From: a virus
IMG/VR virus record: IMGVR_UViG_3300015360_000227
Coordinates: 1 to 20,991 of that record
Length of the DNA: 20,991 nt
Direction: 5' to 3' (one strand)
In this document: positions 1,596 to 18,104 of the stretch, in pieces
How positions within the stretch are numbered: position 1 is the stretch's first letter
Layout of the letters: each line of letters starts with the position of its first letter
Notes under the pieces: model-generated
What the model was told of the DNA's origin: nothing
What the model saw: only the letters and a program-made list of their open reading frames with translations
Database searches by the model: none
Translations under genes and position numbers: made by a program

Positions 1596-3557
1596 TTATA
1601 CGCGCCACGAACTTGGGAGCTGGGTACTTGGAGTGAGAATTGCTTTGAGTGAGAGTATTTCAGCCGATGAACCAGACCCAGTAATACGAATAGAGTAGGC
1701 GCGAATAGCGTTCTTATTGACGTTGATGTATTTGATTATGTCCGTGAGATTGGTTGTCGATGTGGAGGCCTGGCGGCTACTCCCGAATGGGAGACCTCTC
1801 CAGATAAAGCTTCCCCAACCAGCGAGAGATTGCGTGCCAACGACAGGGAAGGATGAGGCAGTGGTAGTTATCCCTGTTTTTCCTTCGATGACTATCTCCA
1901 CGCTGATAGAGCCACGCACATTTTTCAAGTGGACCATAACACGCTTCAAGTTTTTGAGAGAGAGAGGTTTTCCGACCTCTTCTTTTTTTGACTCATAGGT
2001 CCAGTCGATATTTCCCCCATCATCAGTGTTAAACGATGCAGAAATTTCTCGCACCTTCCCATCAGTACCGCCATAGAGAAAATGTTCAACCTTCCCTTCA
2101 TCATAAAACACTTCAATCGAAGATGGATTGGACGGGAAAGAATGCTGACCAGTAAACGCCAACCGTTCTCTATCATACGCCATACACTTTACTTCGGTTG
2201 CTCCCACTGGATAGAACAACCAATACCTTTGAGCAAAGTAATGACAGAAAATATCATCTACGCGAGCGAAGGATATGGTTTCCATTTCGGGCCGGATGCG
2301 AGCAGAGATTTCACGAGTACGCAGCGCGTTGGTGAAGTTTGGTTCGTATCCAATAGAGTTGAGTGATATGCCACCACCAGCACGACGACCAAGAAAGAAG
2401 ATATCATTTTCTACCGGACGGATAGAACGGTGAGAAATACAGCCCAGTGCTCCGGAAATCTTTTGCAGTGTTGGCTCTACAATACCGAGCGAGGCGTTGT
2501 AGGTGAGTGTCACTTGATAGGCGGAACGCTCTTTGAAAATAATGACACGCCCAGAGCTATCATTGGCTTCCGCGAGACCAGTGATTTCTTCTCCGTCATC
2601 TTTAGAAACATCGAAATATCCACCACCGCGAGCCCAATGGAATTTATCAACATTCGGTCCGCCACCAGAGAACATGACACGACTTGGGTTGTTTTCAATG
2701 TTTCCGACAAAGAGTTTTTCCTTGGAAGCAATAACGAATTTTGCTTTTGGTCCAGCGGTGAAATCTGCTTCGGCTGGAAAGACAAAGGCAGAGGCAAGGT
2801 TTGAGCCGTCATCAACAAATGTGATTTGAGAAGCAGGAACGCGCGTGAGGAAAGTTTCATTCCCTGGGTCACGACCATAGATGACATACCCCTGGGCATT
2901 TGCTACTGATGTCCATGAGAGAGTGACGAAGTTGGTAGTGGTGAAATCTTCTGGCAGGACTCCAAGTGACACTGACCCAGAGGCGAGCGTTTCCCCCACT
3001 TCTGATTCAGCGGATATTCTCCAAGAGCGAGTGAAGACACCAGACGCGCCTGATGATTTTGTAATAGAGATGAGAGATGGTCGAGTGATACCAGCGTAGG
3101 AGGCGAGTGTGGTGCCATCGTATCTCCGTAACACTGCTGATGGCGAGACCGCGTACACGCGATTGTATATTTGAGCTGCGTCTAATCGTGAACCAGAAGC
3201 ATAGGAAGCACCAGGGATAATAGTGGTAGATGTCCCAGACTTCCTTCGCAAAAGACCATCTTCATTCATGTACAACGATTCCTGAGCGCCAGAGGCACCA
3301 GAAATTTGCTTGGCATAATAGTGCGAGAGGAATTTCACCTTTGTCGAACCAGCTGAATAATATGTCTGTGTCCCTGGACGCTGAGTGAGAACGCCCTTTC
3401 CTTTGAGGACGAGATTATCCAGACGGCGACTTTCTTCTTTATCAAGCTCAACATCTTGAACGAGGAGGTTCAACCCTCTACGAAAAGATGACCACTCAAC
3501 TTCTTGTGGCTTTCCAAACTGGACTGGTCTTTTTTTAGTCGCGCTAAATACAGCCAT
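1596..3557 (-). CDS. Tail nozzle / stabilisation protein (P22 gp10 / T7 gp12-like role)
   Basis: A 653-residue protein. Residues 29-67 hold the pattern seen near the N-terminus of podovirus nozzle proteins: a Gly-Leu-Asn stretch, acidic residues, then L-x-N-hydrophobic and the turn VLTQRPGTQTYY. Much of the rest alternates short beta strands, consistent with the beta-propeller of nozzle proteins. About residues 160-255 look like a fibronectin type III insertion (VTLSWTSVANAQGYVIYGRD). The nozzle forms the distal end of the short tail and closes the DNA channel. The gene starts 1 nt after the adaptor stop (TAG-T-ATG), so translation is probably coupled, with AGGA about 10 nt upstream of the ATG. 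The family assignment rests on N-terminal pattern and gene order. A generic tail-spike base is the alternative. Confidence 0.7.
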   Translation of the reverse strand: MAVFSATKKRPVQFGKPQEVEWSSFRRGLNLLVQDVELDKEESRRLDNLVLKGKGVLTQRPGTQTYYSAGSTKVKFLSHYYAKQISGASGAQESLYMNEDGLLRRKSGTSTTIIPGASYASGSRLDAAQIYNRVYAVSPSAVLRRYDGTTLASYAGITRPSLISITKSSGASGVFTRSWRISAESEVGETLASGSVSLGVLPEDFTTTNFVTLSWTSVANAQGYVIYGRDPGNETFLTRVPASQITFVDDGSNLASAFVFPAEADFTAGPKAKFVIASKEKLFVGNIENNPSRVMFSGGGPNVDKFHWARGGGYFDVSKDDGEEITGLAEANDSSGRVIIFKERSAYQVTLTYNASLGIVEPTLQKISGALGCISHRSIRPVENDIFFLGRRAGGGISLNSIGYEPNFTNALRTREISARIRPEMETISFARVDDIFCHYFAQRYWLFYPVGATEVKCMAYDRERLAFTGQHSFPSNPSSIEVFYDEGKVEHFLYGGTDGKVREISASFNTDDGGNIDWTYESKKEEVGKPLSLKNLKRVMVHLKNVRGSISVEIVIEGKTGITTTASSFPVVGTQSLAGWGSFIWRGLPFGSSRQASTSTTNLTDIIKYINVNKNAIRAYSIRITGSGSSAEILSLKAILTPSTQLPSSWRV

Positions 3558-4270: not shown

Positions 4271-4298
4271 ACTATACCACGGTCTATAAGTATGTCAA
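4271..4298 (-). promoter_or_regulatory. Repeated late promoter element, copy B
   Basis: Minus strand: TTGACA at 4298-4293, 16-nt spacer, TATAGT at 4276-4271. The -35 box and part of the spacer encode the last residues (Leu-Thr-Tyr-Leu) and stop of the upstream glycosyltransferase. The -10-proximal spacer matches copy A at most positions. Confidence 0.75.
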
Positions 4299-5015
4299 CC
4301 TTGGCCACTGATTGCTTGCTTTCAGCTCTGCCTTCCGCTTATCGTAAAGCCCATTAAAGATAACATGGTTCTTGTTCCATTGAGCTTCTCCACCGAAATC
4401 CTCTCTCCCATGACGAAGAGTGAATGATTCATTGGTTTGGTCTAAGAACGTCTTATATCCAGCGTCATAGATACGCTCCATTATTTGTAGCTGGTCGCCA
4501 CCAACACCAAGAAAATCAAGGTGCTCGTCCATACCACCGACATCCAACACTGCTTGCTTTGGGAATCCTGCAAAATTCCATTCAACATCGTTTGTCTTAC
4601 ATTCATAAACAGACCCGTACTTATCAGTCTTTCTTGGGTCACTCCACACCTTCACCTCTGGCTTCATGGTGTCCTCGTTCAGTCTCGCGTATTGGTCACC
4701 TACGCCAGAGACAACGCCACCGGTCACTTCTACTGCCAAAACCATCTTAGCGATAGCATCTGGAGGAAGCCATATCCAGTCTTGCCAGGTGATGATTATC
4801 TCTCCCACTGCTTTACGGAACAAGGCATTATAAGCCCTGTTTAAGCTCCAGTAGCCACCATAAAAGCTATCGTGCACCCACACAGCATCCTCTACCTTAA
4901 AAGGAGAACAGACCAACCACTCCCAATCGGTATAGGTTTGGTTCAGTAAAGATTCTCGTATGACATCAAGACCACCCTCACGAATAGAGGGGGTAATTAT
5001 GCTGACTTTGACCAT
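4284..5015 (-). CDS. Glycosyltransferase, GT2-like (243 aa)
   Basis: The N-terminus MVKVSIITPSIREGG followed by a helix and NQTYTDWEWLV is the classic opening of GT-A fold family 2 transferases, which move a sugar from a nucleotide donor. The usual DxD is replaced around residues 76-82 by TWQDWIW, so metal binding may rest on the single Asp79. Later GGMDEHLDFLGVGGDQ (about 165-180) resembles the acceptor-side GGxDE motif of GT2 enzymes. It is the last gene of the carbohydrate operon, overlaps the preceding GT2 gene by 19 nt, and is followed by a promoter overlapping its stop. Acceptor and donor are unknown. Confidence 0.75.
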   Translation of the reverse strand: MVKVSIITPSIREGGLDVIRESLLNQTYTDWEWLVCSPFKVEDAVWVHDSFYGGYWSLNRAYNALFRKAVGEIIITWQDWIWLPPDAIAKMVLAVEVTGGVVSGVGDQYARLNEDTMKPEVKVWSDPRKTDKYGSVYECKTNDVEWNFAGFPKQAVLDVGGMDEHLDFLGVGGDQLQIMERIYDAGYKTFLDQTNESFTLRHGREDFGGEAQWNKNHVIFNGLYDKRKAELKASNQWPRLTYL

Positions 5016-5545
5016 CGCTCTTTGTATTTAATTTGATTACGCTTGAAAAAATCATCATGGTCAGGAAAGGTATGTAATGTTCTCCCTCCCTCATGTACAA
5101 AATTTACACTCGAGATACTCTTCATTTTAACGCCTGCTTGTTCAAGCGTATTCCTATAATCATCATCATCAAAATAACTCACCTCATAACCTTCCCACAG
5201 TCCTCCAACTTTTTCATAAACCCATCGAGGTATACAAAACACACATCCCCAAAAATCATTACGCCTACCATTTATCAATGGAGAGGTAACAGCTTCAGGG
5301 TCGCAAAGCATATCTAGGTCACCTTCAGTGAGAATAACATCATCATTCATGACAATAATGAAGTCTCCTTTAGCAAGAGCAAGCCCTTTATTAATTGGTT
5401 TTGCATATCCCATCTTCCAGTTCCAAATAACCAGAAGTTCACTGATAGGGCTAAGGGAGTCAGTGCATCTTTTAAGAATAGAAGGTTTACCTTCATCAGC
5501 TTCCATATAAGGTATAACAACACTTATATTATTTTTTCTTTCCAT
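4997..5545 (-). CDS. Glycosyltransferase, GT2-like (182 aa, short)
   Basis: The product opens with a family 2 strand (ISVVIPYMEADEG, residues 7-19), has KGDFIIVMNDDV at 59-70 with the donor/metal-binding NDD, and WVYEKVGGLWEGYEVSYFDDDDY (about 108-130), matching the G-x-hydrophobic-DE...D-D-x-D/E acceptor region of rhamnosyl- and related transferases. A late HEGGRT fits a C-terminal GT2 His motif. At 182 residues it is shorter than typical (about 250-300), but the core seems complete. The N-terminus overlaps the epimerase gene by 22 nt. Base composition is visibly more AT-rich than the capsid genes, as for its two upstream neighbours, suggesting separate acquisition. Confidence 0.75.
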   Translation of the reverse strand: MERKNNISVVIPYMEADEGKPSILKRCTDSLSPISELLVIWNWKMGYAKPINKGLALAKGDFIIVMNDDVILTEGDLDMLCDPEAVTSPLINGRRNDFWGCVFCIPRWVYEKVGGLWEGYEVSYFDDDDYRNTLEQAGVKMKSISSVNFVHEGGRTLHTFPDHDDFFKRNQIKYKERWSKSA

Positions 5546-6519
5546 GTTCGTGGTGTTTTATCATTAATTATTTCTAGTGGGAGGGAATAATCAAATGGTT
5601 TTGTACCTTTCTTTTTTATATCTTCAATCATTTGTATTAGACCATCACGAAGAGAAGTATCTGTATGGTAGCCAAAGTCCTTTCTAATTTTAGCTGAAGA
5701 ACAATGAGCGTCTTTTACTTCACGAGGTCTTTCAGGATAAAAATCAAACTCCCCCTTGTAGTCAGTCAATTCAGCAATCAGATTAGCAAGCTCAAGTATA
5801 GTCACCACTTCTCCATCTACTTCGTCTGGTCCAATATTATACATTTCTCCTGACGGTGCATCAATTAATTTCACTAATGTTTGTATACAATCATCTACGA
5901 AAGAAAAACATCTAGTTTGGGAACCATCACCATATATAATAGGGGACTTTCCTTGAAGCATTCGATTTATCATAATACTAGCCACATTTCTAAATGGGTC
6001 GTCATACTTTTGACGAGTCCCAATAATTGAGTGAGGTACAGCAATGACATATTCAAAACTATGAGTTTCTGCCATTTGTTTAATCACTTGTTCAGAAGCG
6101 ACTTTAGCAGAAGCATAGGGGTCTTCTGGTCGTGGCAACATATCTTCTGTAAAAGGAGTAGCTTGGTTACCATAGCGAGACATAGAGGACAAGTATATAA
6201 ATCTCTTCAAGTGCCCTCCTTTTATGGAAGAAGAAAGTAGTTGAACTGTGTTTTGAAAAGTATTATTTGTGACGAGAGCAGGAGAAAAAACCGATAGACC
6301 TTCATAAGGAGTGCACGCACAATGATAAATAACTTCAAAATTCCAGTACTGCTCTTTATCATTAAGGTCAGCTTCTAGAAAAGAAACTCCTTTTGGTACA
6401 TTTTCAATACAACCCCCAACAAAGTTATCAACACCAAAAACTTCATGTCCCTCTCTAATTAGTGCCTCAGCAAGATGACTCCCTAAAAATCCTGCCACTC
6501 CTGTAACTAAAATTTTCAT
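5524..6519 (-). CDS. NAD-dependent sugar epimerase/dehydratase (extended SDR)
   Basis: A 331-residue extended short-chain dehydrogenase. The NAD-binding loop is GVAGFLG at residues 7-13, the acidic residue after strand 2 is D31, the catalytic Ser lies in YLSSMSRYG (about 109-117) and the catalytic YxxxK is Y135-K139 (YASAK). PREVKDAHCSSAKIRKDFGY near residue 280 is the usual C-terminal substrate region. The family interconverts nucleotide sugars such as UDP-glucose/UDP-galactose or makes related deoxy sugars. The exact substrate cannot be read here. Its start overlaps the methyltransferase stop by 4 nt (ATGA), with AAAGGA directly before the ATG. It probably supplies a donor sugar to the neighbouring transferases. 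Confidence 0.88.
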   Translation of the reverse strand: MKILVTGVAGFLGSHLAEALIREGHEVFGVDNFVGGCIENVPKGVSFLEADLNDKEQYWNFEVIYHCACTPYEGLSVFSPALVTNNTFQNTVQLLSSSIKGGHLKRFIYLSSMSRYGNQATPFTEDMLPRPEDPYASAKVASEQVIKQMAETHSFEYVIAVPHSIIGTRQKYDDPFRNVASIMINRMLQGKSPIIYGDGSQTRCFSFVDDCIQTLVKLIDAPSGEMYNIGPDEVDGEVVTILELANLIAELTDYKGEFDFYPERPREVKDAHCSSAKIRKDFGYHTDTSLRDGLIQMIEDIKKKGTKPFDYSLPLEIINDKTPRTWKEKII

Positions 6520-7037
6520 TCCTTTACGGCTTTAGCAATTAAGCAACCCATATCATGTGCTTCATACTCCCTGCGGACTTCAACTTTGAAACCAGCTTTT
6601 TCGAGAGCATCTGTGAGGGAATTTTTAGTGTATCCCCAATGGTGTTTGTCAAAGCCAGTGTCACCGACATTGCCATAAATAACCTCCATGAGTTTTTTCG
6701 TAGTAGTAAAATAGCTCGAGTCGCTCCTCCCCCCATTTTCCGTAAGAATAATCTGGTGACAAAGCCACTCTATATCAGGCACGTTAATAATGGCATAGCC
6801 CCCAGAAGGTAATGAGTCATACCAATGCTTCAACATAGCGTCAACTTCTTCAGGAACTATGTGCTCAACAATATGGGAAGCATAGATTGCCTCTACTCCT
6901 TCTGGTAAAGAACGAGCATCAACTCTCATTATGTTATTTGAACGAGGGTTAATATCAGTCAATATCCAAGTATCATCAATAAAATTATAATGATAGCGAT
7001 GTGGCTTTTCGTCGTAAACGCCTAAGACTATTTTCAT
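6516..7037 (-). CDS. SAM-dependent methyltransferase-like protein, lacking the glycine loop
   Basis: 173 residues resembling the type 11 methyltransferases found in polysaccharide clusters. D28 in WILTDINPR matches the acidic ribose-binding residue, VDARSLP (39-45) the adenine region, and YASHIVEHI (52-60) with the following LPSGGYAIINVPD (76-88) the post-I and motif III region. The usual motif I (GxGxG, before the acidic residue) is absent: the segment is MKIVLGVYDEKPHRYHYN. So the enzyme is either divergent or has lost cofactor binding. ATGA overlaps join it to both neighbours. Likely role: methylation of a sugar or glycan; inference from context. Confidence 0.7.
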   Translation of the reverse strand: MKIVLGVYDEKPHRYHYNFIDDTWILTDINPRSNNIMRVDARSLPEGVEAIYASHIVEHIVPEEVDAMLKHWYDSLPSGGYAIINVPDIEWLCHQIILTENGGRSDSSYFTTTKKLMEVIYGNVGDTGFDKHHWGYTKNSLTDALEKAGFKVEVRREYEAHDMGCLIAKAVKE

Positions 7038-7819
7038 ATCACCGATGTTATACCCCTTAGTAATGCTTTGTAATAATGAACTTCACTCGGTACAGGCACT
7101 TTACTCATCTCATTAAGCTTCGGATTGTCGCCTTCAATTTTCACAGGAACTCCGCACGCGCGAGCTTCCAACACTGCTCTCTCTCCGCCGCCATTTATAT
7201 CAGCGGGGATGTAACAGAGCCTTGAAGCATTATAGAAATCAGACAGCTTCTCTGGGGTAACCATATTGCACACGGCAACACCATTCGTAAGAAGCTCTCC
7301 AACGATGTGCAGTGACTCGCTCATGTTCCCTCTTTGTATCTCTCCAATAACAATACGAAGACCAGGGAGAGCGCGTATCTTTTCTTGTCTTTTCCAGGAA
7401 GAGAAAGCTCCAACAGAAATGACATCAAAGAGTTTCGTTGCCTTCTTACGATGAAAATAGATTTGAGTATTCACACCGAAAGCCAGGTGGATATTTTTAT
7501 GGTCAGCTATTTGTGGCTTGTACCACTTAGTCTCGTAAAATAGGACATCATAATTATGCCTATGGATTGGCTCGAAAGCATTACCACCAATGCAAAGTCC
7601 TTTTTTGATATCCAAGCATCGTATAGCCTGTTCAACGGGCGATTCAAAACCACCCCAACCGAGAAGGAAGTCATAGCCCTGAATATCCACCTCGTCAGTT
7701 CTGATATTCTTACACACGACATCGTAGTCGTTCAGGAGAAGCTGAATAGCAGCCCACAAACCGTCCCTCCAGAGGTGGGGGTATTCATGGTCATAGACAA
7801 AGAGTATTTTCTTTTTCAT
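7034..7819 (-). CDS. Glycosyltransferase, GT4-like (261 aa)
   Basis: A two-Rossmann GT-B type protein, shorter than the usual 350-400 residues. The N-terminal half begins KKILFVYDHEYPHLWRDG. The second domain starts near VISVGAFSSWKRQEKI (133-148). The donor-binding signature is PADINGGGERAVLEARACG (205-223), with the E-x4-E pair E213 and E218 that contacts the nucleotide sugar in family 4 enzymes. The start overlaps the stop of the large fusion transferase by 4 nt. Its position in the operon suggests it adds a sugar to the same glycan. Substrate unknown. Confidence 0.78.
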   Translation of the reverse strand: MKKKILFVYDHEYPHLWRDGLWAAIQLLLNDYDVVCKNIRTDEVDIQGYDFLLGWGGFESPVEQAIRCLDIKKGLCIGGNAFEPIHRHNYDVLFYETKWYKPQIADHKNIHLAFGVNTQIYFHRKKATKLFDVISVGAFSSWKRQEKIRALPGLRIVIGEIQRGNMSESLHIVGELLTNGVAVCNMVTPEKLSDFYNASRLCYIPADINGGGERAVLEARACGVPVKIEGDNPKLNEMSKVPVPSEVHYYKALLRGITSVI

Positions 7820-10080
7820 AGATGTTCTGCCCAGCGGTCAGCAATGTTTTTCCATGATTCTTCACGCGCGAGGACGCTAAATCCTTCACTTCCCTCAAAA
7901 GCCGTTGTCAGAAGGAGGACAACCTTATCGGCAACATTTTTTTGTGTCTCTATCTTCAATGGGTTGCCAGGGACGGTCCAGCAATAAGTTCTATCTTTTA
8001 GAGCGGCATAATTCGTTGTGACGGGGATACATTCAACAGCGGCTGATTCTCTTACGCCGATACAGTCAATCTCCTCAAAAATACATGGGTAGAAATGGAC
8101 TGGGGCTGTGGCCTTGAAGTTGATGAGTTCCTGTTGAGACACTCGTCCATGGTGGACTACGCCTGGCTGGGTCATCAGCTCTTCCATCTTTGCTTTCCAG
8201 GCCATACGCTCTGGATTGTTTCTGTGAATGGCCTCAAAGAGATTCCAACCATAGAAGATATGAAACTCGGCGTGGGGAACGGCCTTCTTGATAATCGGCC
8301 ACCCGATAGAGAGGGCTGGCTCTAACCCTCGGTCATAACTAGATGACCACACCACTCTTCCTGGTACCTTCTCTAACTTCTTTGGAAGCATTGTCAGGTC
8401 AATACCATTTGGTATGATTTCGAACTTCTCATCTGGGACATCAGGAAGAAGCGAACGATGATACGGTGACTTCACAAATATCTTCGTCACTTTCTTTAAT
8501 CGCTCGGGAGTGTATTCAGCCGCCTGTGGGACATCGTGCAAGTCCAAGAACACGCGCTTCGCTTTGCAGGGAGTGTTGAGTAAGGTTTCGTTCCTCCAAA
8601 TGATGAGGGTATCAAAGGTATCCATCATATTCCACTGCCACCAGTGCTTCCAATCAATACCGTCCTTATCGGTGTGCTCCCCTTTAGGATAACCGAATAT
8701 CGTGACCTTATACCCTAGCTTTGTCCATTGTCGAGCGAGATGTATCACCGCCGTTTCAGACCCACCGATACCAGCCTCCAGATTACTCTCATCCCATCTC
8801 TCGAATCCCTTCCCACAAAAATAAGCAATGGTTTTTTCTCCCCATACTTTTGCTGGGGTATACTCCTGAATAAGTTTTTCAAGAAGTTTTGTTCCCTGAA
8901 GTTTATCGGGAGCGTTGAGAACGAGGGCTGCGACCCTTTCTATATCATCATAAGAATCTATAACATGTAAGAACGCTTCACCGAGAGTTTTATTTTCCAT
9001 GAGTTGCGTTACTGCCTCCAATCGCTCTGCTAACAACGTATCATCAGGAAAGAATTGGCACAGTTTTTCCGCTGCCATCAGACATTCCTCCATCTTTCCT
9101 GTCTTCAGCGTGGCAAAGTAAATAACCTCCAGTGCTTTCATCTTATCGTCGCGAGGAGTCATTACCATAGCAGTTTTGGGCGCGTTCATGGAAAGACCCA
9201 TTTGGGTGAAGAATATCGCTCGTTCCCAGTCTTCTTTCTTCCCATAGGCAACACCAAGGTTCACATACCAGGTAGGAAACTCAGGACGTTCCTTGATAGC
9301 CTGCATATAGGCCTCAATAGCGTCATCAAACTTGTCGTTTTGGATGTAAATATCACCTAAATAGCTCCAAGCCATAGCCCTTTCTTCATCCCATCCAGAG
9401 TGCTCCAAATAGGCATACAAGAGTCTTTCCGCCTTAGCATGGTCACGACTATCATAATAACAGCGAGCCAGGTAGTATTCTGTCCGAGGGTCGTGCTTAG
9501 TGCCTTCATCTGCATAGGTTTTCTCCAAAATCTCTATATTCCGATGGATATTGTTATCAATTTCCGCCTCAGTCGGGTAGTGATTAACCGCTAAAAGGTT
9601 AGTAAAGACGGTTGTTACCTGCTTCTGTGGGATGAGTGTCTCGTGCAGTTTACCAACCCAGTGATAGGAGTTCTTTCGTATAACGCGCTCTCTTGGGTGG
9701 GATATCAGTATTTGTCCTGTTTTCTCGTCTATCTGGTAGTTATAGGTAGCAAAATAGGCATCTTCACCGGTAGAAATGAGCTGTTTTAGGACGTTTCCGT
9801 CCTTCAAAACATCGTCCGTGTCGAGCCAAATCATATACTCATATTCGTCTGGAATCTGGCTTTTGGCGTAGTTTCGAGCAGCGGAGAAATCTTTGTTCCA
9901 CTTAAAGAAAGAAATCTTTGCTCCATAGGATGCAAAGACTTTTGTGGCCTCTCCTTCTTTCTCCCAGGTGGCGGTAGCGTAGACAGCGTCAACGTGTTGC
10001 GCGACGCTCTGCAAAAGGCGGTTAATCTGAGCACCGGTTTCAGTGCCTTTGTAGATTATCGACAGGGCTATTTTTGACAT
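7816..10080 (-). CDS. Trifunctional-looking glycosyltransferase: GT2 + TPR + GT4 fusion
   Basis: 754 residues in three parts. Residues 1-175 are a family 2 transferase: KIALSIIYKG start, FFKWNKDFSAARNYAKS (58-74), the metal/donor motif WLDTDD (85-90) and HWVGKLHETL (140-149). Residues about 195-350 form tetratricopeptide-like helices (EYYLARCYYDSRDHAKAERL; AWSYLGDIYIQNDKFDDAIE), possible acceptor-binding scaffold. Residues about 415-754 are a family 4 transferase: AGIGGSETAVIHLAR (436-450), IIPNGID (555-561), WSSSYDRGLEPAL (578-590) and an E-x7-E type region in FEEIDCIGVRESAAVE. GT2-TPR proteins with extra GT domains occur in bacteria and some phages. It starts 1 nt after the preceding stop, with AGGA 7 nt before the ATG, one of the few good ribosome sites here. 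Confidence 0.85.
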   Translation of the reverse strand: MSKIALSIIYKGTETGAQINRLLQSVAQHVDAVYATATWEKEGEATKVFASYGAKISFFKWNKDFSAARNYAKSQIPDEYEYMIWLDTDDVLKDGNVLKQLISTGEDAYFATYNYQIDEKTGQILISHPRERVIRKNSYHWVGKLHETLIPQKQVTTVFTNLLAVNHYPTEAEIDNNIHRNIEILEKTYADEGTKHDPRTEYYLARCYYDSRDHAKAERLLYAYLEHSGWDEERAMAWSYLGDIYIQNDKFDDAIEAYMQAIKERPEFPTWYVNLGVAYGKKEDWERAIFFTQMGLSMNAPKTAMVMTPRDDKMKALEVIYFATLKTGKMEECLMAAEKLCQFFPDDTLLAERLEAVTQLMENKTLGEAFLHVIDSYDDIERVAALVLNAPDKLQGTKLLEKLIQEYTPAKVWGEKTIAYFCGKGFERWDESNLEAGIGGSETAVIHLARQWTKLGYKVTIFGYPKGEHTDKDGIDWKHWWQWNMMDTFDTLIIWRNETLLNTPCKAKRVFLDLHDVPQAAEYTPERLKKVTKIFVKSPYHRSLLPDVPDEKFEIIPNGIDLTMLPKKLEKVPGRVVWSSSYDRGLEPALSIGWPIIKKAVPHAEFHIFYGWNLFEAIHRNNPERMAWKAKMEELMTQPGVVHHGRVSQQELINFKATAPVHFYPCIFEEIDCIGVRESAAVECIPVTTNYAALKDRTYCWTVPGNPLKIETQKNVADKVVLLLTTAFEGSEGFSVLAREESWKNIADRWAEHL

Positions 10081-10513: not shown

Positions 10514-11413
10514 CTAGACAGAGAAGTTGCGGACAGTCATGGCACGAGCACCACGAGTTTCCACGGTAGCTTCTCCGATAATCATCCCTCTTGAGGCATC
10601 ACCGATAGTAGCGAGCTCTACCAACTTCGGCTTACGTAGGTAAGCGATTTGGATTTGGCTCTTCTTAAGACCGATAACGTCTCCAGCGAGTACATCCTTG
10701 TGGGCCTTTATTTCATGGATACCGAAATCCGATTCATAAATCGAAATGGTATTCACCAAACTCTTGTCCTCAGCAGAGATGTTACGAGTGTTTCCGGCGG
10801 TAAACTTGGAAATATCACGTTTTCTGCCTGCAGTGGTCAACACGAGGTCGAACACATATTCGTCAGTGACATTCCAGCTGGATACAACCATGTCGTTGAA
10901 TTCGTTTTCCGAGAGACTGGTTCCAGAAACACGGAGAGTGTACAGACCATCTGTGACAATCGTGTTACGGATACCTTCCATTTCTCGTCCGACACCAGAG
11001 GAACCAGAAGCCTTTGTTCCGCGAAGCAGAGCAAACTCAAACTGATTTTTCCAGGTCTTCATCGCTTTCGCTTGCTGGTATGCAAAGGCATCCTTAGGAG
11101 AAAGTTTGTTCACCTGTCGTTCCGTTTCGGAAACGATAAATGACTGCCGGATGATTTGGCAGATGTTGTTCTTGCGTGTTGGCTGGGTAAGAGCGGAGTA
11201 ACTTGCGTCATCACCTTCAATGGTCACCGCATTCGTGGTATTGCGAGCGACAAAGTCTTCACCCCATTCATGGAGGGTCTGTGAAGCAGTGCCGACTTTC
11301 GCAAAGTTCTGAATGTAGTTGGCATCTGGACTTACGTCCACCAAAACATCCATCAGGTCTTCACGGCGTACGGTGTCATTGTAGGTTTGAAGCGTACCGG
11401 CGGTCATGGCCAT
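10514..11413 (-). CDS. Major capsid protein, SU10/DUF5309 type (HK97 fold)
   Basis: 299 residues. The N-terminal pattern T-x3-YNDTVRREDLMDVLVDVSPD (9-29), then HEWGEDFVARNT, an EGDDASY segment, and NNICQIIRQSFIVSETER (about 81-98) is the conserved opening of the SU10-type capsid family, which adopts the HK97 fold and builds the icosahedral shell. No N-terminal delta domain is present, consistent with a separate scaffold gene immediately upstream (22-nt gap). The start at 11413 is chosen because it follows the gap and matches the family's N-terminus (MAMTAGTL); an in-frame Met lies at residue 3. A strong terminator follows, as expected for a highly expressed gene. Confidence 0.9.
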   Translation of the reverse strand: MAMTAGTLQTYNDTVRREDLMDVLVDVSPDANYIQNFAKVGTASQTLHEWGEDFVARNTTNAVTIEGDDASYSALTQPTRKNNICQIIRQSFIVSETERQVNKLSPKDAFAYQQAKAMKTWKNQFEFALLRGTKASGSSGVGREMEGIRNTIVTDGLYTLRVSGTSLSENEFNDMVVSSWNVTDEYVFDLVLTTAGRKRDISKFTAGNTRNISAEDKSLVNTISIYESDFGIHEIKAHKDVLAGDVIGLKKSQIQIAYLRKPKLVELATIGDASRGMIIGEATVETRGARAMTVRNFSV

Positions 11414-12858: not shown

Positions 12859-14865
12859 TCAGCCAACAGGAACTCCTTGAGGAACTCCGACCGGAGGAAT
12901 TCCTTGGCCAGCAATCCCCGTCGTTTGCGGAGGGAGCGCGACTCCTCCATTTCCCGAGACATCGACTCCATCTGCTCCTGCGTTTGGAAGATTTCCATCT
13001 TGTTGCATGTTGGGTTGATTAGGTGGTGCCATTGGTTGTTCTGGAAGTTTATCGAAGTACTGGTCAGCATCTTTCACTCCTGCCTTTTCAGCGAGGGCGG
13101 TGTTGAGTTCTTTCCACTTGACGATGATTCCTTGCTTCTCCATCGACTGTTCACTTTCAAGGAGCGACTGCATAAAGAGTTGGCGAGCCTGCACTTCGGT
13201 CTGGTCGCTCTGGATACTCATCGCTTCAATGTCGACAATGAAATCAAACTCGCCGTCATAGTCATCTTTCTCCATGGTGAGTGTTCCTGACCTATTGCCA
13301 TTTTCCAACTGTAATTTTGGAAGCATCGCTCCATCTGGTCCGGCGACAGGATAGAGTGGTGTTCCGTACTGCTGGAGGAGTCCGGTCTGACGCATTTCCT
13401 CGTAGGCTTGCTCCCACATGATGTCGTGTTCATGAGCATACTGCGCGACCAGTTCCTGTCCTTCCGAGCTGACTGACCAGTCTTGCAGTCCTTCGTTCAT
13501 GAAATCAGCGATAGCATCTTTGCCAATAATCTTTACAACTTCGCCGTCTCCCAAGAACTGCTTGTTCATTTGTGTCCAAAAGAAAATCATTTTCCCCATA
13601 GCAAGCTGGAGCATTATCTTGTTGGCGTTGTCGCGCGAGGTACGCAAGAGTGCCATGTCCCTCACTTCGGTGGCGGTCTTTTCTACTCCTGACTGCTGGG
13701 CAATCTGAGAGACATCCTGTCCTGTTTCCCCCATACCTTCCATGATGAGCGATGTGAGTAGTCCATAGACCTCAAAGAACTTCTGCATAGAAGTGGTGCC
13801 ACTCTGGAATGGCATGACATCAGTGCCAGGGCGTTGCATGAGCCAGCGAGCACCTGAGTCAAACTTGAGCGTGTCCATCTGCACGTTCTGGGGGTTTACC
13901 ATGAGAGGCGTGTAGAGTTCGTTCTGGGCGGATTCAAGGTACTGACAGAGCAGGGCCCAGTTTGCCTTTAAGAGGGGAAGAACAGCTTCCAATTCTGGCA
14001 CACCATAAATATCATCATCGATTGAATCGTACATCAATCGGATAATAGGGATTTCTCCGTGGTCAAATGGGTTGGGAATCTCACGAAGGACCATACCCTT
14101 CACATCTCCGCGCTTCGGCATAAAGGTAATCCATTTGTCCCGACGATATTCAGTCACCACCTCAAAACGACCGTTTGATTTCGCGTTCTGCAAACCGACA
14201 ACCGTCTTGTTGATAGAGGTATATTCTTTGTGGTCGCCATCTTGTTCGTCCTCCATATCCTTGATAGCTTTCGTATCATAGATGGGTCCGAATTTTGCCT
14301 TTTCGTTGACCTTCTTTAGTTCTGCTAGGGTGACATAGCGACGCACCTGCACCCATTCAGAGTCTTCGAGAGAGGACGCTCCTGGCTGAGTGATGACGTT
14401 GCGGTTCTCCAGATGTTCAAACCAAGGCTGAGAGACCTTGCCCTTCTTATTCCAACCAACAAAAGCAAACCCAGCCCCGTATTTACGAGTGGATTGGTCT
14501 ACTTTGCGCCATTTCATGAGGATTGGTTCGTCGGTGCAGAGGTCGTGATACTGCCACTGAGAAAGAACGAGCTGGGTGTTTATCTTTGCCTTAAGTTCAG
14601 AGCCGTCCTTTCGTGGTTTGAGGTTCCCTTGGAGCCGAGAAGCAAGCAGTCGGTCGGTTTTGCGTTTAAGAAGAGTGGCTCCACGTCCGTCAGGTACCCT
14701 GGCTCGAAATGGCCAAGTCGTTGGGTCAATATAATTGCGGAAAACACGGTCATAGACATCAAAGCCTCGCTCCTTATGAGTGATTCGAGTCTCGAGTTCT
14801 CCTTTTCCGTCATCATAGTGACGTAAAACCTCGCTTAATACGTCTTTTTTCTTCGTTCGTGCCAT
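12859..14865 (-). CDS. Portal protein (podovirus/P22-type, 668 aa)
   Basis: The size fits the large portals of short-tailed phages. The N-terminal half is alpha/beta with KYGAGFAFVGWNKKGK (about 128-143) and an RxVTLAELKK helix (about 191-202), as in other phage portals. The central LYTPLMVNPQNVQ...GARWLMQRPGTDVMPF leads to the helical wing and stem (LLTSLIMEGMGETGQD) and a long helical C-terminal part. The last 60 residues are Pro/Gly/Gln/Asn-rich and probably disordered. Twelve copies form the ring through which DNA is pumped and to which the terminase and adaptor attach. The likely promoter is at 14895-14928. Confidence 0.88.
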   Translation of the reverse strand: MARTKKKDVLSEVLRHYDDGKGELETRITHKERGFDVYDRVFRNYIDPTTWPFRARVPDGRGATLLKRKTDRLLASRLQGNLKPRKDGSELKAKINTQLVLSQWQYHDLCTDEPILMKWRKVDQSTRKYGAGFAFVGWNKKGKVSQPWFEHLENRNVITQPGASSLEDSEWVQVRRYVTLAELKKVNEKAKFGPIYDTKAIKDMEDEQDGDHKEYTSINKTVVGLQNAKSNGRFEVVTEYRRDKWITFMPKRGDVKGMVLREIPNPFDHGEIPIIRLMYDSIDDDIYGVPELEAVLPLLKANWALLCQYLESAQNELYTPLMVNPQNVQMDTLKFDSGARWLMQRPGTDVMPFQSGTTSMQKFFEVYGLLTSLIMEGMGETGQDVSQIAQQSGVEKTATEVRDMALLRTSRDNANKIMLQLAMGKMIFFWTQMNKQFLGDGEVVKIIGKDAIADFMNEGLQDWSVSSEGQELVAQYAHEHDIMWEQAYEEMRQTGLLQQYGTPLYPVAGPDGAMLPKLQLENGNRSGTLTMEKDDYDGEFDFIVDIEAMSIQSDQTEVQARQLFMQSLLESEQSMEKQGIIVKWKELNTALAEKAGVKDADQYFDKLPEQPMAPPNQPNMQQDGNLPNAGADGVDVSGNGGVALPPQTTGIAGQGIPPVGVPQGVPVG

Positions 14866-14894: not shown

Positions 14895-14928
14895 ATTATA
14901 GTATGCAACTAGGTACTTAAATTGTCAA
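14895..14928 (-). promoter_or_regulatory. Candidate promoter for portal
   Basis: Minus strand: TTGACA at 14928-14923 followed after 17 nt by CATACT (14905-14900); a perfect TATAAT overlaps it at 14900-14895 but at 22-nt spacing. The -35 box is inside the last codons of the upstream gene. The leader to the portal ATG would be about 25-30 nt. Confidence 0.5.
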
Positions 14929-15187
14929 ATATGTCTTCTCCAGGGAGCGTTTTGAGTATTTTATCCTGCATGGTTCGTACCCGAATCCAGTTTCCATTGT
15001 TTTTTCGTTGCATTTCAATGAAAATCTTGCCAAAACCGTCATCTGATGTTCTAATAATGGCCATTTTCTCCGCTACCACTAACAATTCCTGAAAATCAAG
15101 GTGTCCGCGCTGGGCCATTTGATAAATAGTGAAGAGTTCTGGGCACGATTGGCTGAGGAGGGCTGCGAATTGTTCTTCGTTTGTCAT
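14909..15187 (-). CDS. Hypothetical protein between terminase nuclease and portal (92 aa)
   Basis: The product begins MTNEEQFAALLSQSCPELFTI, is helical in the first two thirds (QELLVVAEKMAIIRTSDDG) and ends with an acidic tail. No family is recognised. The ATG overlaps the nuclease stop by 4 nt (ATGA, 15184-15187), so it is translated with the terminase genes. By position it could be a packaging accessory factor, but the sequence does not show this. Confidence 0.7.
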   Translation of the reverse strand: MTNEEQFAALLSQSCPELFTIYQMAQRGHLDFQELLVVAEKMAIIRTSDDGFGKIFIEMQRKNNGNWIRVRTMQDKILKTLPGEDIFDNLST

Positions 15188-15867
15188 AAGCCTATGTGTG
15201 GGTCATGTTTTATTTGGGCACTCGCTTGTTTCAGGTAGGTGGAGAATGGTCCACTGCCAGCGCTGTTAAAACCAGAATACTCACGAGCATACTGATAGAG
15301 TTGCCAGGCACCAGCAAGAGCCATGACCAGGTCGTCGTGGGCCCCTTTTTCCGCTTGGGCTTTCCAGGAGGAGGACGTCTTAGCAATAACAAAAGAAAAA
15401 AGTTCCTCTATGGTTTGGCGGTCATAGATAGTGGCTATGCCCTTATCAACCATGTCCTTGAGGTCAGAGAGCATCTTAGGGCGCGTGGCAGTGTTCGTGT
15501 CCCACCCCAGCTTCTTTGATTCTTCGTTGTCCAGGTAGCGACCATAGGTGGGCATCATAAAAATATCAAACTTGTTTCTTCTGTTTAATGAGGCCAGCCG
15601 TTCCATTTCGAACACGCCACCGTTATTTCTTTCATAGGCAACCAGTGGTTTGATACCGGTGGTGTCATAAATCTTCTCAAGTACCGGAAAGAGTTCATTG
15701 GTCATGTCGGTGGCCATGCGCCTGGAGTGGAACACCAGAGGAACGTCTAAGCGTTGGCGAGATAAAAACTGCACGCAGGAATAGTCCTTGGCACCGGCAG
15801 AAGTGTCAGCAAAAACAAGGATGTGCTCCCCATCAGTGATGTTTCTGTATTGCCGCCAATCTTTCAT
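15184..15867 (-). CDS. terL: Terminase large subunit, nuclease part (separate gene)
   Basis: 227 residues corresponding to the RNase H-like C-terminal half of a TerL. D21 in ILVFADTSAGAKDYS is the first catalytic Asp with its following G-x-DY, E79 in LVAYERNNGG is the second acidic residue, and D178-D179 in GAHDDLVMALAGAW is the last. These bind two metal ions and cut concatemeric DNA into genome lengths. The ATPase half is not fused but encoded 227 nt upstream, with a GroES-like gene between. The start at 15867 leaves a short linker (MKDWRQYRNITDGEH) before the first strand, matching the normal hinge between TerL domains. There is no sign of a frameshift remnant. ATGA overlaps link it to both neighbours. 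Confidence 0.88.
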   Translation of the reverse strand: MKDWRQYRNITDGEHILVFADTSAGAKDYSCVQFLSRQRLDVPLVFHSRRMATDMTNELFPVLEKIYDTTGIKPLVAYERNNGGVFEMERLASLNRRNKFDIFMMPTYGRYLDNEESKKLGWDTNTATRPKMLSDLKDMVDKGIATIYDRQTIEELFSFVIAKTSSSWKAQAEKGAHDDLVMALAGAWQLYQYAREYSGFNSAGSGPFSTYLKQASAQIKHDPHIGL

Positions 15868-16094
15868 AATTGTGCGAGGAGTTCATCCTCTTTAATAACA
15901 ATGTAACTCACGCCAGCAATGGTGACACCGAGCAGAGCCTTGGAAGGGTTGTACACATAGGTACCTTTGGCTATGGCACCAAATACGAGCTCCCCCGTGG
16001 GTTCAGCACTATTGTCTCCGAGGAAAATACCATTAGCGGTGACCGATTCTGTCGAGGTGGGGATAAGAAACACATAGCCATTGAGAGGGTTCAT
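15864..16094 (-). CDS. GroES-like co-chaperonin (phage Cpn10), inside the terminase operon
   Basis: 76 residues: NGYVFLIPTSTESVTANGIFLGDN (5-28) matches the start of Cpn10 proteins, with NGIFL in the place of the GGIVL tip of the mobile loop that docks on GroEL. PTGELVFGAIAKGTYV (32-47) matches the turn and beta-barrel strand, and YIVIKEDELLAQL (64-76) the terminal strand (usual form y-x-I-hydrophobic-x-E-x-D-I-L-A). It is shorter than bacterial GroES (about 97). T4 gp31 is the known precedent for a phage co-chaperonin that replaces GroES for capsid protein folding. It shares ATGA overlaps with the ATPase gene upstream and the nuclease gene downstream. No Walker or nuclease residues are present, so it is not a piece of TerL. 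A small beta-barrel of another family is the alternative. Confidence 0.68.
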   Translation of the reverse strand: MNPLNGYVFLIPTSTESVTANGIFLGDNSAEPTGELVFGAIAKGTYVYNPSKALLGVTIAGVSYIVIKEDELLAQL

Positions 16095-16903
16095 ACCAGT
16101 TGGAATTTAATTGGTTTAAGAAGTTTCGCGTAATCAAGGTGCTTCCTTAAGGCGTCAACATCAAAGTAACAATCCCCAGAGGTGATAAAGGCAACTTCGG
16201 GAGAATCTGGATATTCTTGTTCATAGAGGCGACCCAGTTCACGGCGCTTGGAATCGAGGAACTCTTTCGAATAGAAATCCTTGGCATTGAAGAAGAGGGG
16301 GTTGAAATTATTGTCACCGCCCTTTGCCCCATCCCAGAGTGTCTTAAAAAGGTTGAAGCCATTGGCGGTGGTTTCAACAACAACATAGCCATCGGGGACA
16401 ACCGCTTGAAGGGCACCAGCCAAAAGTTTATCAAAGTCTTTATAAAAAGCAGCCTCCGAAAAATGAAGATTGGTGATAGTTTTGGAGCGCCCAAAGGAGT
16501 GTCGCCCAGCGGTACCGATGATGTAATGGGACCCAATAACCTGGTTGACGAGTTCACGACGGGAATTGTATTTCAAAAATTTGGAAGCATCTATCCCTTG
16601 GGAGGCGGCATAGTCCTCCACAAACTGCTTCACTCGGTCTAAGAGACCTTGAGCGTTCTCAGTGCTATCAGCAATGACGACAGAATAGGAATTATCCTTG
16701 AGGAGGAAATCCACAGCAAAACGAGCAAGAATAACAGAAGAAAAGCCTTGCTGGCGAGCTTTAAGAATAATGTCTCTGTCTGTCGCCCCCTTCTGATAGG
16801 CATCCTGGATGGGATTGAGGATAAAAGGCACTCGAACACCTTGTTTATTCACAATGGTAAACGTATCCTCTATAAATTTCTTATATCCAGCTTTCCAGGG
16901 CAT
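16091..16903 (-). CDS. terL: Terminase large subunit, ATPase part (separate gene)
   Basis: 270 residues equal to the N-terminal motor half of TerL. Adenine-binding Q33 lies in NPIQDAY. The Walker A variant is KARQQGFSS (48-56), of the RQxGxS type usual in terminases. Walker B is TNLHFSEAAF (144-153) with catalytic Glu150. The coupling motif is VVETTANG (175-182). The protein ends a few residues after GDCYFDVDALRKHLDYAKLL, the position where the nuclease domain would normally follow. It drives ATP-dependent DNA translocation into the procapsid through the portal. ATG at 16903 has no Shine-Dalgarno; a hairpin lies about 40 nt upstream. The downstream gene starts inside its stop codon. Confidence 0.9.
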   Translation of the reverse strand: MPWKAGYKKFIEDTFTIVNKQGVRVPFILNPIQDAYQKGATDRDIILKARQQGFSSVILARFAVDFLLKDNSYSVVIADSTENAQGLLDRVKQFVEDYAASQGIDASKFLKYNSRRELVNQVIGSHYIIGTAGRHSFGRSKTITNLHFSEAAFYKDFDKLLAGALQAVVPDGYVVVETTANGFNLFKTLWDGAKGGDNNFNPLFFNAKDFYSKEFLDSKRRELGRLYEQEYPDSPEVAFITSGDCYFDVDALRKHLDYAKLLKPIKFQLV

Positions 16904-16942
16904 ATAACAAAAAGAATGATTACGCGAAACGCTTCCACTCTA

Positions 16943-16974
16943 TGAGGGGACCCAATTAACAATCCTCCCCCTCA
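16943..16974 (-). promoter_or_regulatory. Hairpin in the leader of the terminase ATPase gene
   Basis: TGAGGGGA (16943-16950) can pair with TCCCCCTCA (16966-16974) with one bulged C and a 15-nt loop. In the minus-strand mRNA it sits about 40 nt before the ATG and has no T-tract, so it is not a terminator. It carries CUCAUAG, complementary to CUAUGAG in the plus-strand RNA at 17055-17169. Confidence 0.35.
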
Positions 16975-17019
16975 ACAACTATATCCGGCTTTATTGATTC
17001 CTCTTCCATAAATAAATAC

Positions 17020-17048
17020 TTGACAAGGTTTATGATAGACGTTACACT
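17020..17048 (+). promoter_or_regulatory. Plus-strand promoter between terL and terS
   Basis: TTGACA (17020-17025), 17-nt spacer, TACACT (17043-17048). The same -35 and -10 boxes and a similar GGTT/TAT spacer start occur in the plus-strand promoter at 17836-17865. It points away from terL and into a stretch with no credible gene, ending at a terminator 94 nt further on. Confidence 0.65.
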
Positions 17049-17054
17049 TGCGTG

Positions 17055-17169
17055 TGGGATGGCACTTAATACGACAGTCCCCTATGAGACGTTTGAAACA
17101 GTTCCATATACCAGTCCACGTCAAAAGAATATAACACAGATAACACACAAAAGCAAATGTGTGTTTTTT
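17055..17169 (+). ncRNA. Candidate small RNA (about 115 nt), antisense within the terminase operon
   Basis: Bounded by the promoter at 17020-17048 and the terminator at 17142-17169. The 5' end GTGGGATGG (17054-17062) can pair with CCAGTCCAC (17111-17119), about 9 positions with one mismatch and one G-U, closing an inner loop. The inner part holds three CAGTCC-like repeats (17074, 17099 and 17112 regions). If terS and terL are transcribed together, this RNA is complementary to their intercistronic mRNA. A 38-codon frame from ATG 17059 exists, but its stop (17173-17175) lies beyond the terminator, so coding is less likely. Function is unknown; regulation of terminase expression or a packaging-related RNA are possibilities only. 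Confidence 0.45.
17142..17169 (+). terminator. Plus-strand intrinsic terminator
   Basis: AACACACA (17142-17149) pairs with TGTGTGTT (17158-17165) around an 8-nt A-rich loop, followed by a T-run (T 17164-17169). The stem is A-T/G-C mixed and of moderate strength. It closes the transcript started at about 17055. Confidence 0.6.
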
Positions 17170-17239
17170 ATATAAAAAAATAGTGAAGGAGAAAAAGGAA
17201 GGTTGCACTGTGTAAGTACTATATATAGAGTCTCATTAC

Positions 17240-17275
17240 GGGGGTAGACAGTATCTTATTTACCCCCTCCCCCCC
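17240..17275. repeat. G/C-tract inverted repeat in the terS-terL gap
   Basis: GGGGGTA (17240-17246) and TACCCCC (17261-17267) form a perfect 7-bp inverted repeat with a 14-nt loop, followed by a run of seven C at 17269-17275. Such strand-biased G/C tracts stand out in the AT-rich gap (16904-17386), which otherwise holds no gene. A packaging (cos or pac) site is a possible role given the terS location. Confidence 0.5.
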
Positions 17276-17325
17276 GTCTTTACGTCTGATAATACTCCTT
17301 ATGGGACATGTGTGACCATATAAAA

Positions 17326-17370
17326 ATAGGCACACGTATGCCTATATAATATAGGTACATATGCGCCTAT
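17326..17370. repeat. Two tandem 20-bp palindromes, 25-bp period, next to terS
   Basis: Unit 1 (17326-17345) is ATAGGCA-CACGTA-TGCCTAT, symmetric at 9 of 10 base pairs. Unit 2 (17351-17370) is ATAGG-N10-CCTAT with CATATG in the centre, symmetric at 8 of 10. The joint CCTATATAATATAGG (17341-17355) is itself a perfect inverted repeat. A third CCTAT follows at 17386-17390. The spacing suggests binding of a dimeric protein to two sites. The place, directly after the terS stop, suits either an operator or a small-terminase binding site. Confidence 0.55.
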
Positions 17371-17386
17371 TATACGTTAGATAAGC

Positions 17387-17818
17387 CTATAAGTCGTATC
17401 CCTTTCGCGTCTCTTTTATCGTGTGAGAGAGGTTGACGTTGACTTGTTTCAAATGTCCTTTCGTTTTGAGTGCTAAAGTAATGAAACCAAGCTTCTTTCC
17501 TTCCGTTAGTGAGTTTTCTATTCCACTCTTCAATTCTTCCATTAAATATCCATCCGTCAAGCCTATAGTATCCATTATCTCCACCAGTACATTCTTCACG
17601 TGTGGTTTTGCTAACGTTGCAACGCCCAATCCTCTCTTTCCTTCTTCGCTTTTGTTTGAGGCATACGCTTGACGTCCTGCTTCGCTTTTGTTTCCTGTTA
17701 TGGCGTACACTTGTACTGTTTTTGCTTGTTTTGCCGTCAATTCTTTTCCGTTCTTTTCCAGTGATATTCTTTGTATTTCCTCAATGGTCACGGCCTTTCC
17801 TATTGGTTGCGGTTTCAT
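17387..17818 (-). CDS. terS: Terminase small subunit
   Basis: The start is placed at ATG 17818 (143 residues, MKPQPIGKAVTIEEI). The frame extends 19 codons further upstream but through promoter sequence. Residues 27-52, ELTAKQAKTVQVYAITGNKS then EAGRQAY, match the N-terminal helix-turn-helix of small terminases (L-T-x-K-Q-x-x-F-V-x-x-Y-x-x-x-G-N-x-x-x-A). AKPHVKNVLVEIMDTIGL (about 70-87) and ELKSGIENSL fit the following helices. TerS recognises the packaging site and loads TerL. A duplicated N-K-S-E segment 12 residues apart matches a 14-bp DNA repeat. The leader has no Shine-Dalgarno; the ATG is preceded by TATAATACT, as in the divergent transglycosylase gene. The gene is separated from terL by 483 nt, unusually far. 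Confidence 0.82.
   Translation of the reverse strand: MKPQPIGKAVTIEEIQRISLEKNGKELTAKQAKTVQVYAITGNKSEAGRQAYASNKSEEGKRGLGVATLAKPHVKNVLVEIMDTIGLTDGYLMEELKSGIENSLTEGKKLGFITLALKTKGHLKQVNVNLSHTIKETRKGYDL
17644..17693. repeat. 14-bp direct repeat inside terS
   Basis: CTTCGCTTTTGTTT occurs at 17644-17657 and again at 17680-17693, 36 bp (12 codons) apart and in frame. It encodes N-K-S-E twice in the DNA-binding region of TerS. It may be a local duplication or a recognition site; pac sites within terS are known in phages such as P22. Confidence 0.6.
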
Positions 17819-17835
17819 AGTATTATATAGAAAGC

Positions 17836-17865
17836 TTGACAGGTTATATAAAAATATGCTACACT
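17836..17865 (+). promoter_or_regulatory. Rightward promoter for the transglycosylase unit
   Basis: TTGACA (17836-17841), 18-nt spacer, TACACT (17860-17865). Transcription would start near 17872 and produce a leader of about 230 nt before ATG 18105. It lies almost exactly on top of the leftward terS promoter. Confidence 0.65.
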
Positions 17866-17870
17866 GTCTA
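17843..17870 (-). promoter_or_regulatory. Leftward promoter for terS, overlapping the rightward one
   Basis: Minus strand: TAGACA at 17870-17865, 16-nt spacer, TATAAC at 17848-17843. The transcript would start about 17836 and reach the terS ATG (17818) within about 20 nt. The TAGACA -35 is shared with the promoter at 10442-10470. RNA polymerase could not occupy both strands' promoters at the same time. Confidence 0.45.
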
Positions 17871-17871
17871 T

Positions 17872-18104
17872 ACAACTGAGCTACACGTGATACACGGTAG
17901 ACTGGTTGGCAGGTTTCAACACTTCGTGGTAAGCAGTAGATACATTCTCAATCTAGCTACTTTATACCACGAAACAAAGCACAACGCAAGCAAGCAATTG
18001 GTGGGCTATCGTTAGCAAGTTCTTGGCCAGTGCCAAGCGGTAGCCCTCTCTATTAATACACGGGTGACGGTTGATTGATACGCTATCAATCAAAATATAA
18101 TACT
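17872..18104 (+). ncRNA. Structured leader with four successive hairpins (5' UTR or RNA element)
   Basis: No gene is present. Hairpin 1, 17881-17900: CTAC/GTAG and CGTG/CACG with one bulged A and an ATA loop. Hairpin 2, 17923-17973: TTCGTGGTA/TACCACGAA enclosing TAGAT/ATCTA. Hairpin 3, 18003-18046: GGGCTATCG/CGGTAGCCC (one wobble) around a 10-nt bulge and a perfect CTTGGC-CAGT-GCCAAG stem-loop. Hairpin 4, 18071-18093. No stem is followed by a T-tract, so these are not terminators. The order resembles a regulatory leader or structured RNA rather than spacer DNA. I do not recognise a known riboswitch or ribozyme. Confidence 0.5.
18071..18093 (+). repeat. Perfect 10-bp inverted repeat before the transglycosylase start
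   Basis: TTGATTGATA (18071-18080), CGC, TATCAATCAA (18084-18093). As DNA it is an operator-like palindrome; as RNA it is a stable hairpin ending 11 nt before the ATG, close enough to affect initiation. Confidence 0.7.

Follow-up and report, generated by a model that had tools for sequence, protein, structure and literature searches.

The large terminase subunit (TerL) of phage T4, gp17, is a single chain in which an ATPase "engine" and a nuclease-domain "wheel" are described as coupled by an essential covalent hinge; the isolated domains retain their own activities, and translocation is lost without the hinge, according to PMC9958956, which cites Kanamaru 2004 for this. In the Jug phages, Bastillevirinae and Campylobacter phage IBB_35, terL reads as several ORFs that are at times separated by a homing endonuclease gene; there the gene is interrupted by introns or inteins and is spliced where this has been tested. 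The nearest published remark to the case described here concerns Parabacteroides phage phiPDS1 (MN929097), which has two TerL CDSs and whose authors suspected the codon table or the assembly (PMC10773633); only open-licence PMC papers were searched, and an earlier description elsewhere is possible. The phiPDS1 TerL belongs to PHROG 38, an unrelated family, and matches neither of the profiles presented below, so it was rejected as the same system. In a different frame, its nuclease-like sequence extends 5' of the annotated start, indicating a possible frameshift in that phage. The genomes compared here indicate a different situation, in which many uncultured tailed phages, forming one large group, make TerL as two proteins, often with an unrelated gene between them.

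The stretch of DNA under analysis (the window, 20,991 bases) is a single assembly covering part of a genome, and the record may be a fragment. Its minus strand carries, in order, the genes for the small terminase subunit (TerS), the TerL ATPase half, a GroES-like protein, the TerL nuclease half, a 92-aa protein and the portal, with the capsid gene further on (Table 1). This TerS, TerL, portal and capsid context is typical of TerL. An ORF of similar size to the 92-aa ORF was found at the equivalent position in relatives. The ~480 nt between TerS and the ATPase half hold no convincing gene in the window, and in several relatives (L001, L003 and L005) TerS overlaps the ATPase half without such a gap. 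Between the capsid and the tail-side genes, reading of the sequences without a family search pointed to sugar-related and methyltransferase genes; glycosyltransferase and methyltransferase genes stand at the matching position in MW202524, which is the closest GenBank relative by capsid.

Table 1. Features of the terminase locus and neighbouring regions of the window.
Feature	Position	Strand	Support and remarks
Terminase small subunit (TerS)	17387..17875	-	PHROG terminase small subunit E 8e-8; Pfam Terminase_2 E 1.6e-5 (0.1 bit under cut-off); 5' of ATPase half
Gap between TerS and ATPase half	16904-17386		no convincing gene; contains a G-run/C-run pair
Terminator-like stem within that gap	17326-17345		
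TerL ATPase half, 270 aa	16091..16903	-	PHROG terminase large subunit E 1.1e-13; Q33, deviant Walker A 48-56, catalytic E150, ETTANG 177-182
ATGA stop/start overlap, 4 nt, ATPase half/GroES-like ORF	16091..16094	-	sequence
GroES (Cpn10)-like ORF, 76 aa, between TerL halves	15864..16094	-	PF00166 E 3.5e-4; PHROG 3188 E 3e-4
ATGA stop/start overlap, 4 nt, GroES-like ORF/nuclease half	15864..15867	-	sequence
TerL nuclease half, 227 aa	15184..15867	-	PHROG terminase E 2.2e-12; D21, E79, D178-D179
4-nt overlap, nuclease half/92-aa ORF	15184..15187	-	sequence
92-aa ORF, function unknown, between nuclease half and portal	14909..15187	-	no family match above cut-off
Portal protein (SU10-like)	12859..14865	-	PHROG portal E 1.2e-8; Pfam SU10_portal E 2.9e-5 (below cut-off)
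Major capsid protein (SU10 type)	10514..11413	-	Pfam SU10_MCP E 5.9e-56
Glycosyltransferase-like genes, NAD-dependent epimerase, methyltransferase	4284-10080	-	reading of sequences only

The initial annotation had placed all of the motor motifs in the 270-residue protein, all of the nuclease acids in the 227-residue protein and the break at the normal hinge of TerL, and each of these placements was borne out. In an alignment of 12 N halves, Q33, the deviant Walker A KARQQGFSS (K48-S56), E150 and ETTANG (E177-G182) were invariant except for Q51 and Q52, and D21, E79, D178 and D179 were invariant in the 12 C halves aligned. Single-sequence searches returned terminase families for both halves (PHROG), and profiles built from 12 relatives matched TerL structures: the ATPase domain of T4 gp17 (3ezk, E 8.7e-8) for one half and the RB49/T4 gp17 nuclease (3c6a, E 4.8e-8) for the other, with weaker matches of the nuclease profile to T4 gp17, 5tge and 5m1f. 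The N half as a single-protein query against viral_contigs gave no match, while an alignment query did. One of the few fused relatives, L072, was modelled with the separate halves added as extra alignment rows; an alignment that mixed the halves with distant fused TerLs was dropped, and another was used for structure prediction. The model (mean pLDDT 85) had T4 gp17 as its top structural match, and the point at which the relatives are split falls on it after the final ATPase helix (254-262) and before the nuclease domain's first long strand (286-291). The pTM of 0.56 makes the relative placement of the domains unreliable. The 4-nt overlaps with neighbouring genes noted in the initial annotation are also real, those with the GroES-like ORF being ATGA sequences, but the halves are not adjacent: the 223 nt from the stop of the ATPase half to the start of the nuclease half are occupied by the GroES-like ORF, which had been overlooked.

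The locus thus resembles T4 gp17 and the RB49 gp17 nuclease domain, its best profile and structure matches, in having both domains, the motifs and the predicted folds. It differs from T4 gp17, with its one chain and essential hinge (PMC9958956), in encoding two chains, between which other genes are possible. The closest isolate TerL to the ATPase half is that of Roseobacter phage CRP-7 (MK613349; 28.5% identity), which the nuclease profile matches too, although it is encoded by a single 1767-nt gene and has a longer inter-domain linker. No isolate with this TerL was found in 50,697 phage records, where the best matches were ~30% identical and those inspected were single genes. The GenBank capsid relatives MW202524 and MW202497 were set aside, having single-gene TerLs that match neither half profile. 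Applying the criterion that a TerL has both domains in one polypeptide, the locus fails, and its motifs and profile matches mark it as a variant TerL rather than a standard one.

Searches with each half kept the best 80 matches each, so they amount to a census of the surroundings of the window and not of every TerL. Among the matches listed, 100 distinct loci had both halves, and 97 of them were split into two ORFs at a common inter-domain point, the other three (L072, L141 and L168) being fused. The ends of the halves overlap in 62 of 96 split loci (by 8 nt in 21, 17 nt in 13 and 4 nt in seven), are separated by 0-45 nt in five, and by 80 nt or more in 26, again among the matches listed. The remaining three (L027, L107 and L061) were left unscored; they lack ATG, GTG or TTG where expected and have ATC or ATA at the conserved start of the nuclease half, which could be rare start codons or reflect another route of translation. 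In the other 93 of the 96 listed, the nuclease half has its own ATG, GTG or TTG start, and a common motif, mostly R/Q-Y/F-R, lies near the nuclease-half start in 93/96 of these matches.

The overlapping ends would allow programmed ribosomal frameshifting to join the frames, so that TerL would be partly or wholly one chain, and the nuclease half indeed lies in the +1 frame in 51 of the 62 overlapping, insert-free relatives among the matches listed. It lies in the +2 frame in the other 11, however, the overlaps range from 1 to 41 nt with no shared slip site seen, the retained start codon of the nuclease half speaks against it, and DNA intervenes between the halves in the 26 listed relatives with long gaps and, as the GroES-like ORF, in the window. 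A conserved programmed frameshift was rejected on account of the mixed phases, variable overlaps, inserts and lack of a common slip site, and we regard frameshifting that joins the halves as very improbable.

A group I or II intron, or an intein-like element, might divide two exons of one TerL and then be removed. Precedents exist in the intron-split terL genes of Bastillevirinae and the Jug phages (PMC12363816, PMC11878797), and L013 and L130 have HNH genes between the halves. Unlike such cases, the group of the window has yielded no intron, its frames differ, and some members have inserts of various kinds and others none. An intron-split terL was rejected because Rfam matched no intron in the window or in any of the 14 relatives scanned that carry inserts. 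In most relatives the halves overlap directly and in different frames, leaving nothing removable. No Hint sequence was present at the break in the aligned halves; the two inteins found (L115 4912-6555 and L061 2073-3557, with Hint_2 and intein splicing domain matches) lie elsewhere, at the catalytic GAHDD motif within the nuclease half. We give this explanation next to no credence. Scans of the junction for Rfam families, tRNAs and promoters yielded nothing useful.

An error of sequencing or assembly, or gene decay in a defective phage, could be entertained for a window taken from a single virus record, and one relative does have a broken nuclease half: in L161 (~3109-3400) the frame changes near the start of that half and several stops occur in frame, through either decay or sequencing error. 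Against this stand the same split in 97 distinct loci among the matches listed, junctions that are identical across independent assemblies, the retained catalytic residues and pairwise dN/dS of 0.03-0.17 in both halves (pairs with unsaturated dS), values that point to strong purifying selection on each. Each of 20 records, 27-45 kb long, yielded a single match to the ATPase half and a single match to the nuclease half (18 split and two fused), and phrog_2 detected no second TerL in them, with at most one place in each. PF03237 matched only the ATPase half, in three of the window and 18 long records, and no other TerL. Within the window itself no other TerL was found, with the reservation that it may be a fragment. 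A second intact terL, which would have refuted the initial annotation, was therefore not found in the window or in these long records, and an organised, heritable split, in place of the error or decay that the annotation had excluded, is strongly supported; we consider error or decay scarcely credible.

A tree of 101 rows, with CRP-7, a Brevibacillus plasmid and two Manatee Spring phages as outgroup, set the split group apart from single-gene TerLs with 99% support. It was built by a quick method and has long outgroup branches, leaving the exact root unsure. The split most likely arose once, at the inter-domain linker, in the ancestor of a broad group of uncultured phages. The three fused members are nested inside the split group, and their junctions are in frame (SHFRQYR in L072, DGFRRYR in L141 and DMFMQHR in L168), so that their origin by re-fusion would be the simplest account. 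Another kind of joining is apparent in L163 (1490-2881), where TerS and the ATPase half seem to form one open frame, whether through a genuine fusion or a deletion in the assembly, and a C5 DNA methylase gene sets the nuclease half apart.

The junction between the halves has received many kinds of genes. Methylases, HNH nucleases, nucleotidyltransferases or unknown ORFs occupy it in 26/96 split relatives among the matches listed, including N6/N4 DNA methylases (L043, L139 and L082), a C5 DNA methylase (L163), HNH_3 (L130 and L013), a NinG-like gene (L115), nucleotidyltransferases (L014 and L118), methyltransferase domains (L013, and weakly L062), a HAD-like hydrolase (L078) and, in several relatives, unknown ORFs; in the window it holds the GroES-like gene. 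The distribution of inserts on the tree needs 16 changes, of which well-supported branches make at least 10 unavoidable. L139 and L140 have near-identical halves (N 100%, C 99%), and L139 carries a 1.3-kb methylase gene exactly at the half junction that L140 lacks. L079 and L062 share only 41% identity in the ATPase half against 79% in the nuclease half, 70% in the portal and 89% in the capsid, whereas L079 and L015 share 64% in the ATPase half and 33% in the portal; the divergent ATPase type of L079 is common to ten loci. These contrasts indicate that the ATPase half moved separately from the nuclease half, and that the junction is a recombination point, as far as compared identities, without formal tree topologies, can tell. 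This role of the junction in cargo uptake and recombination was not described in the papers searched, with the same limits as given above.

The GroES-like ORF of the window falls 0.1 bit under the PF00166 cut-off (21.0 against 21.1 bits) and matches a clear Cpn10 ORF of L074 (E 2.7e-5). As a query against viral_contigs the protein gave no match, and its structure model (mean pLDDT 59) was too weak for a fold search. PF00118, the GroEL family, had no match in the window or among 18 long relatives. Its position exactly between the halves, with coupled overlaps, could suggest a working part of the split motor, such as an adaptor, or a factor dedicated to folding the two chains, and GroES-like genes lie close to TerL in L094 (5651-6255, two in tandem), L013 (8178-8456) and L074 (2315-2581) as well. 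In those three, however, the gene is always 3' of the nuclease half and not at the junction; among the relatives examined the window alone has it there, the others carrying unrelated genes or none, and a part in the motor has only a slim chance of being correct. In T4, gp31 assists the folding of a phage protein with host GroEL. By analogy with gp31, the GroES-like protein would most likely help to fold some phage protein with host GroEL.

In loci with whole genes between the halves a joined product is ruled out, and no intron was found; for these reasons the packaging motor of two chains implied by the initial annotation is supported, its independent control of cutting and pumping being no more than a possibility, and we hold it highly probable that the locus encodes a natural, stable two-chain TerL motor. 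Its physical assembly and packaging activity are inferred only, in contrast to what is observed: the split and its conservation, selection on both halves, long relatives without a second TerL, the passenger genes and the half exchange. In such a motor, chain 1, the ATPase, would form the translocating ring on the portal, and chain 2, a RuvC/RNase H-like nuclease, would make the initiation and termination cuts. The ATGA overlaps would likely couple translation, one chain being made after the other, and the chains would presumably associate non-covalently through the domain interface used by fused TerLs. The split would have left a permanent intergenic site that has since acquired passenger genes many times, the GroES-like gene of the window among them, and through which the ATPase half has been swapped independently of the nuclease half.

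Several points weigh against a two-chain motor. The window rests on a single assembly that covers part of a genome, there are no protein-level or packaging data for these uncultured phages, and the three re-fused members indicate that a single chain is sometimes favoured. Separated T4 domains, moreover, keep their activities and lose translocation without the hinge (PMC9958956), from which it follows that in the split phages either the contact between the two chains is firm enough to stand in for the hinge, or the ATPase chain translocates alone. A further reading, that the nuclease is a dissociable, exchangeable subunit with its own dosage, joining only for initiation and headful cuts while the ATPase ring translocates without it, can be proposed only tentatively, and we lean somewhat against it.

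TerL is a standard marker for phages, and in this group an annotator meets two short ORFs instead, the ATPase half being mostly under the Pfam Terminase_6N cut-off in the window and 18 long relatives. The split halves are ready-made parts for motor reconstitution. A phage group with engine and wheel on separate chains would be a natural test of the covalent-hinge model of T4, as that model is given in PMC9958956.
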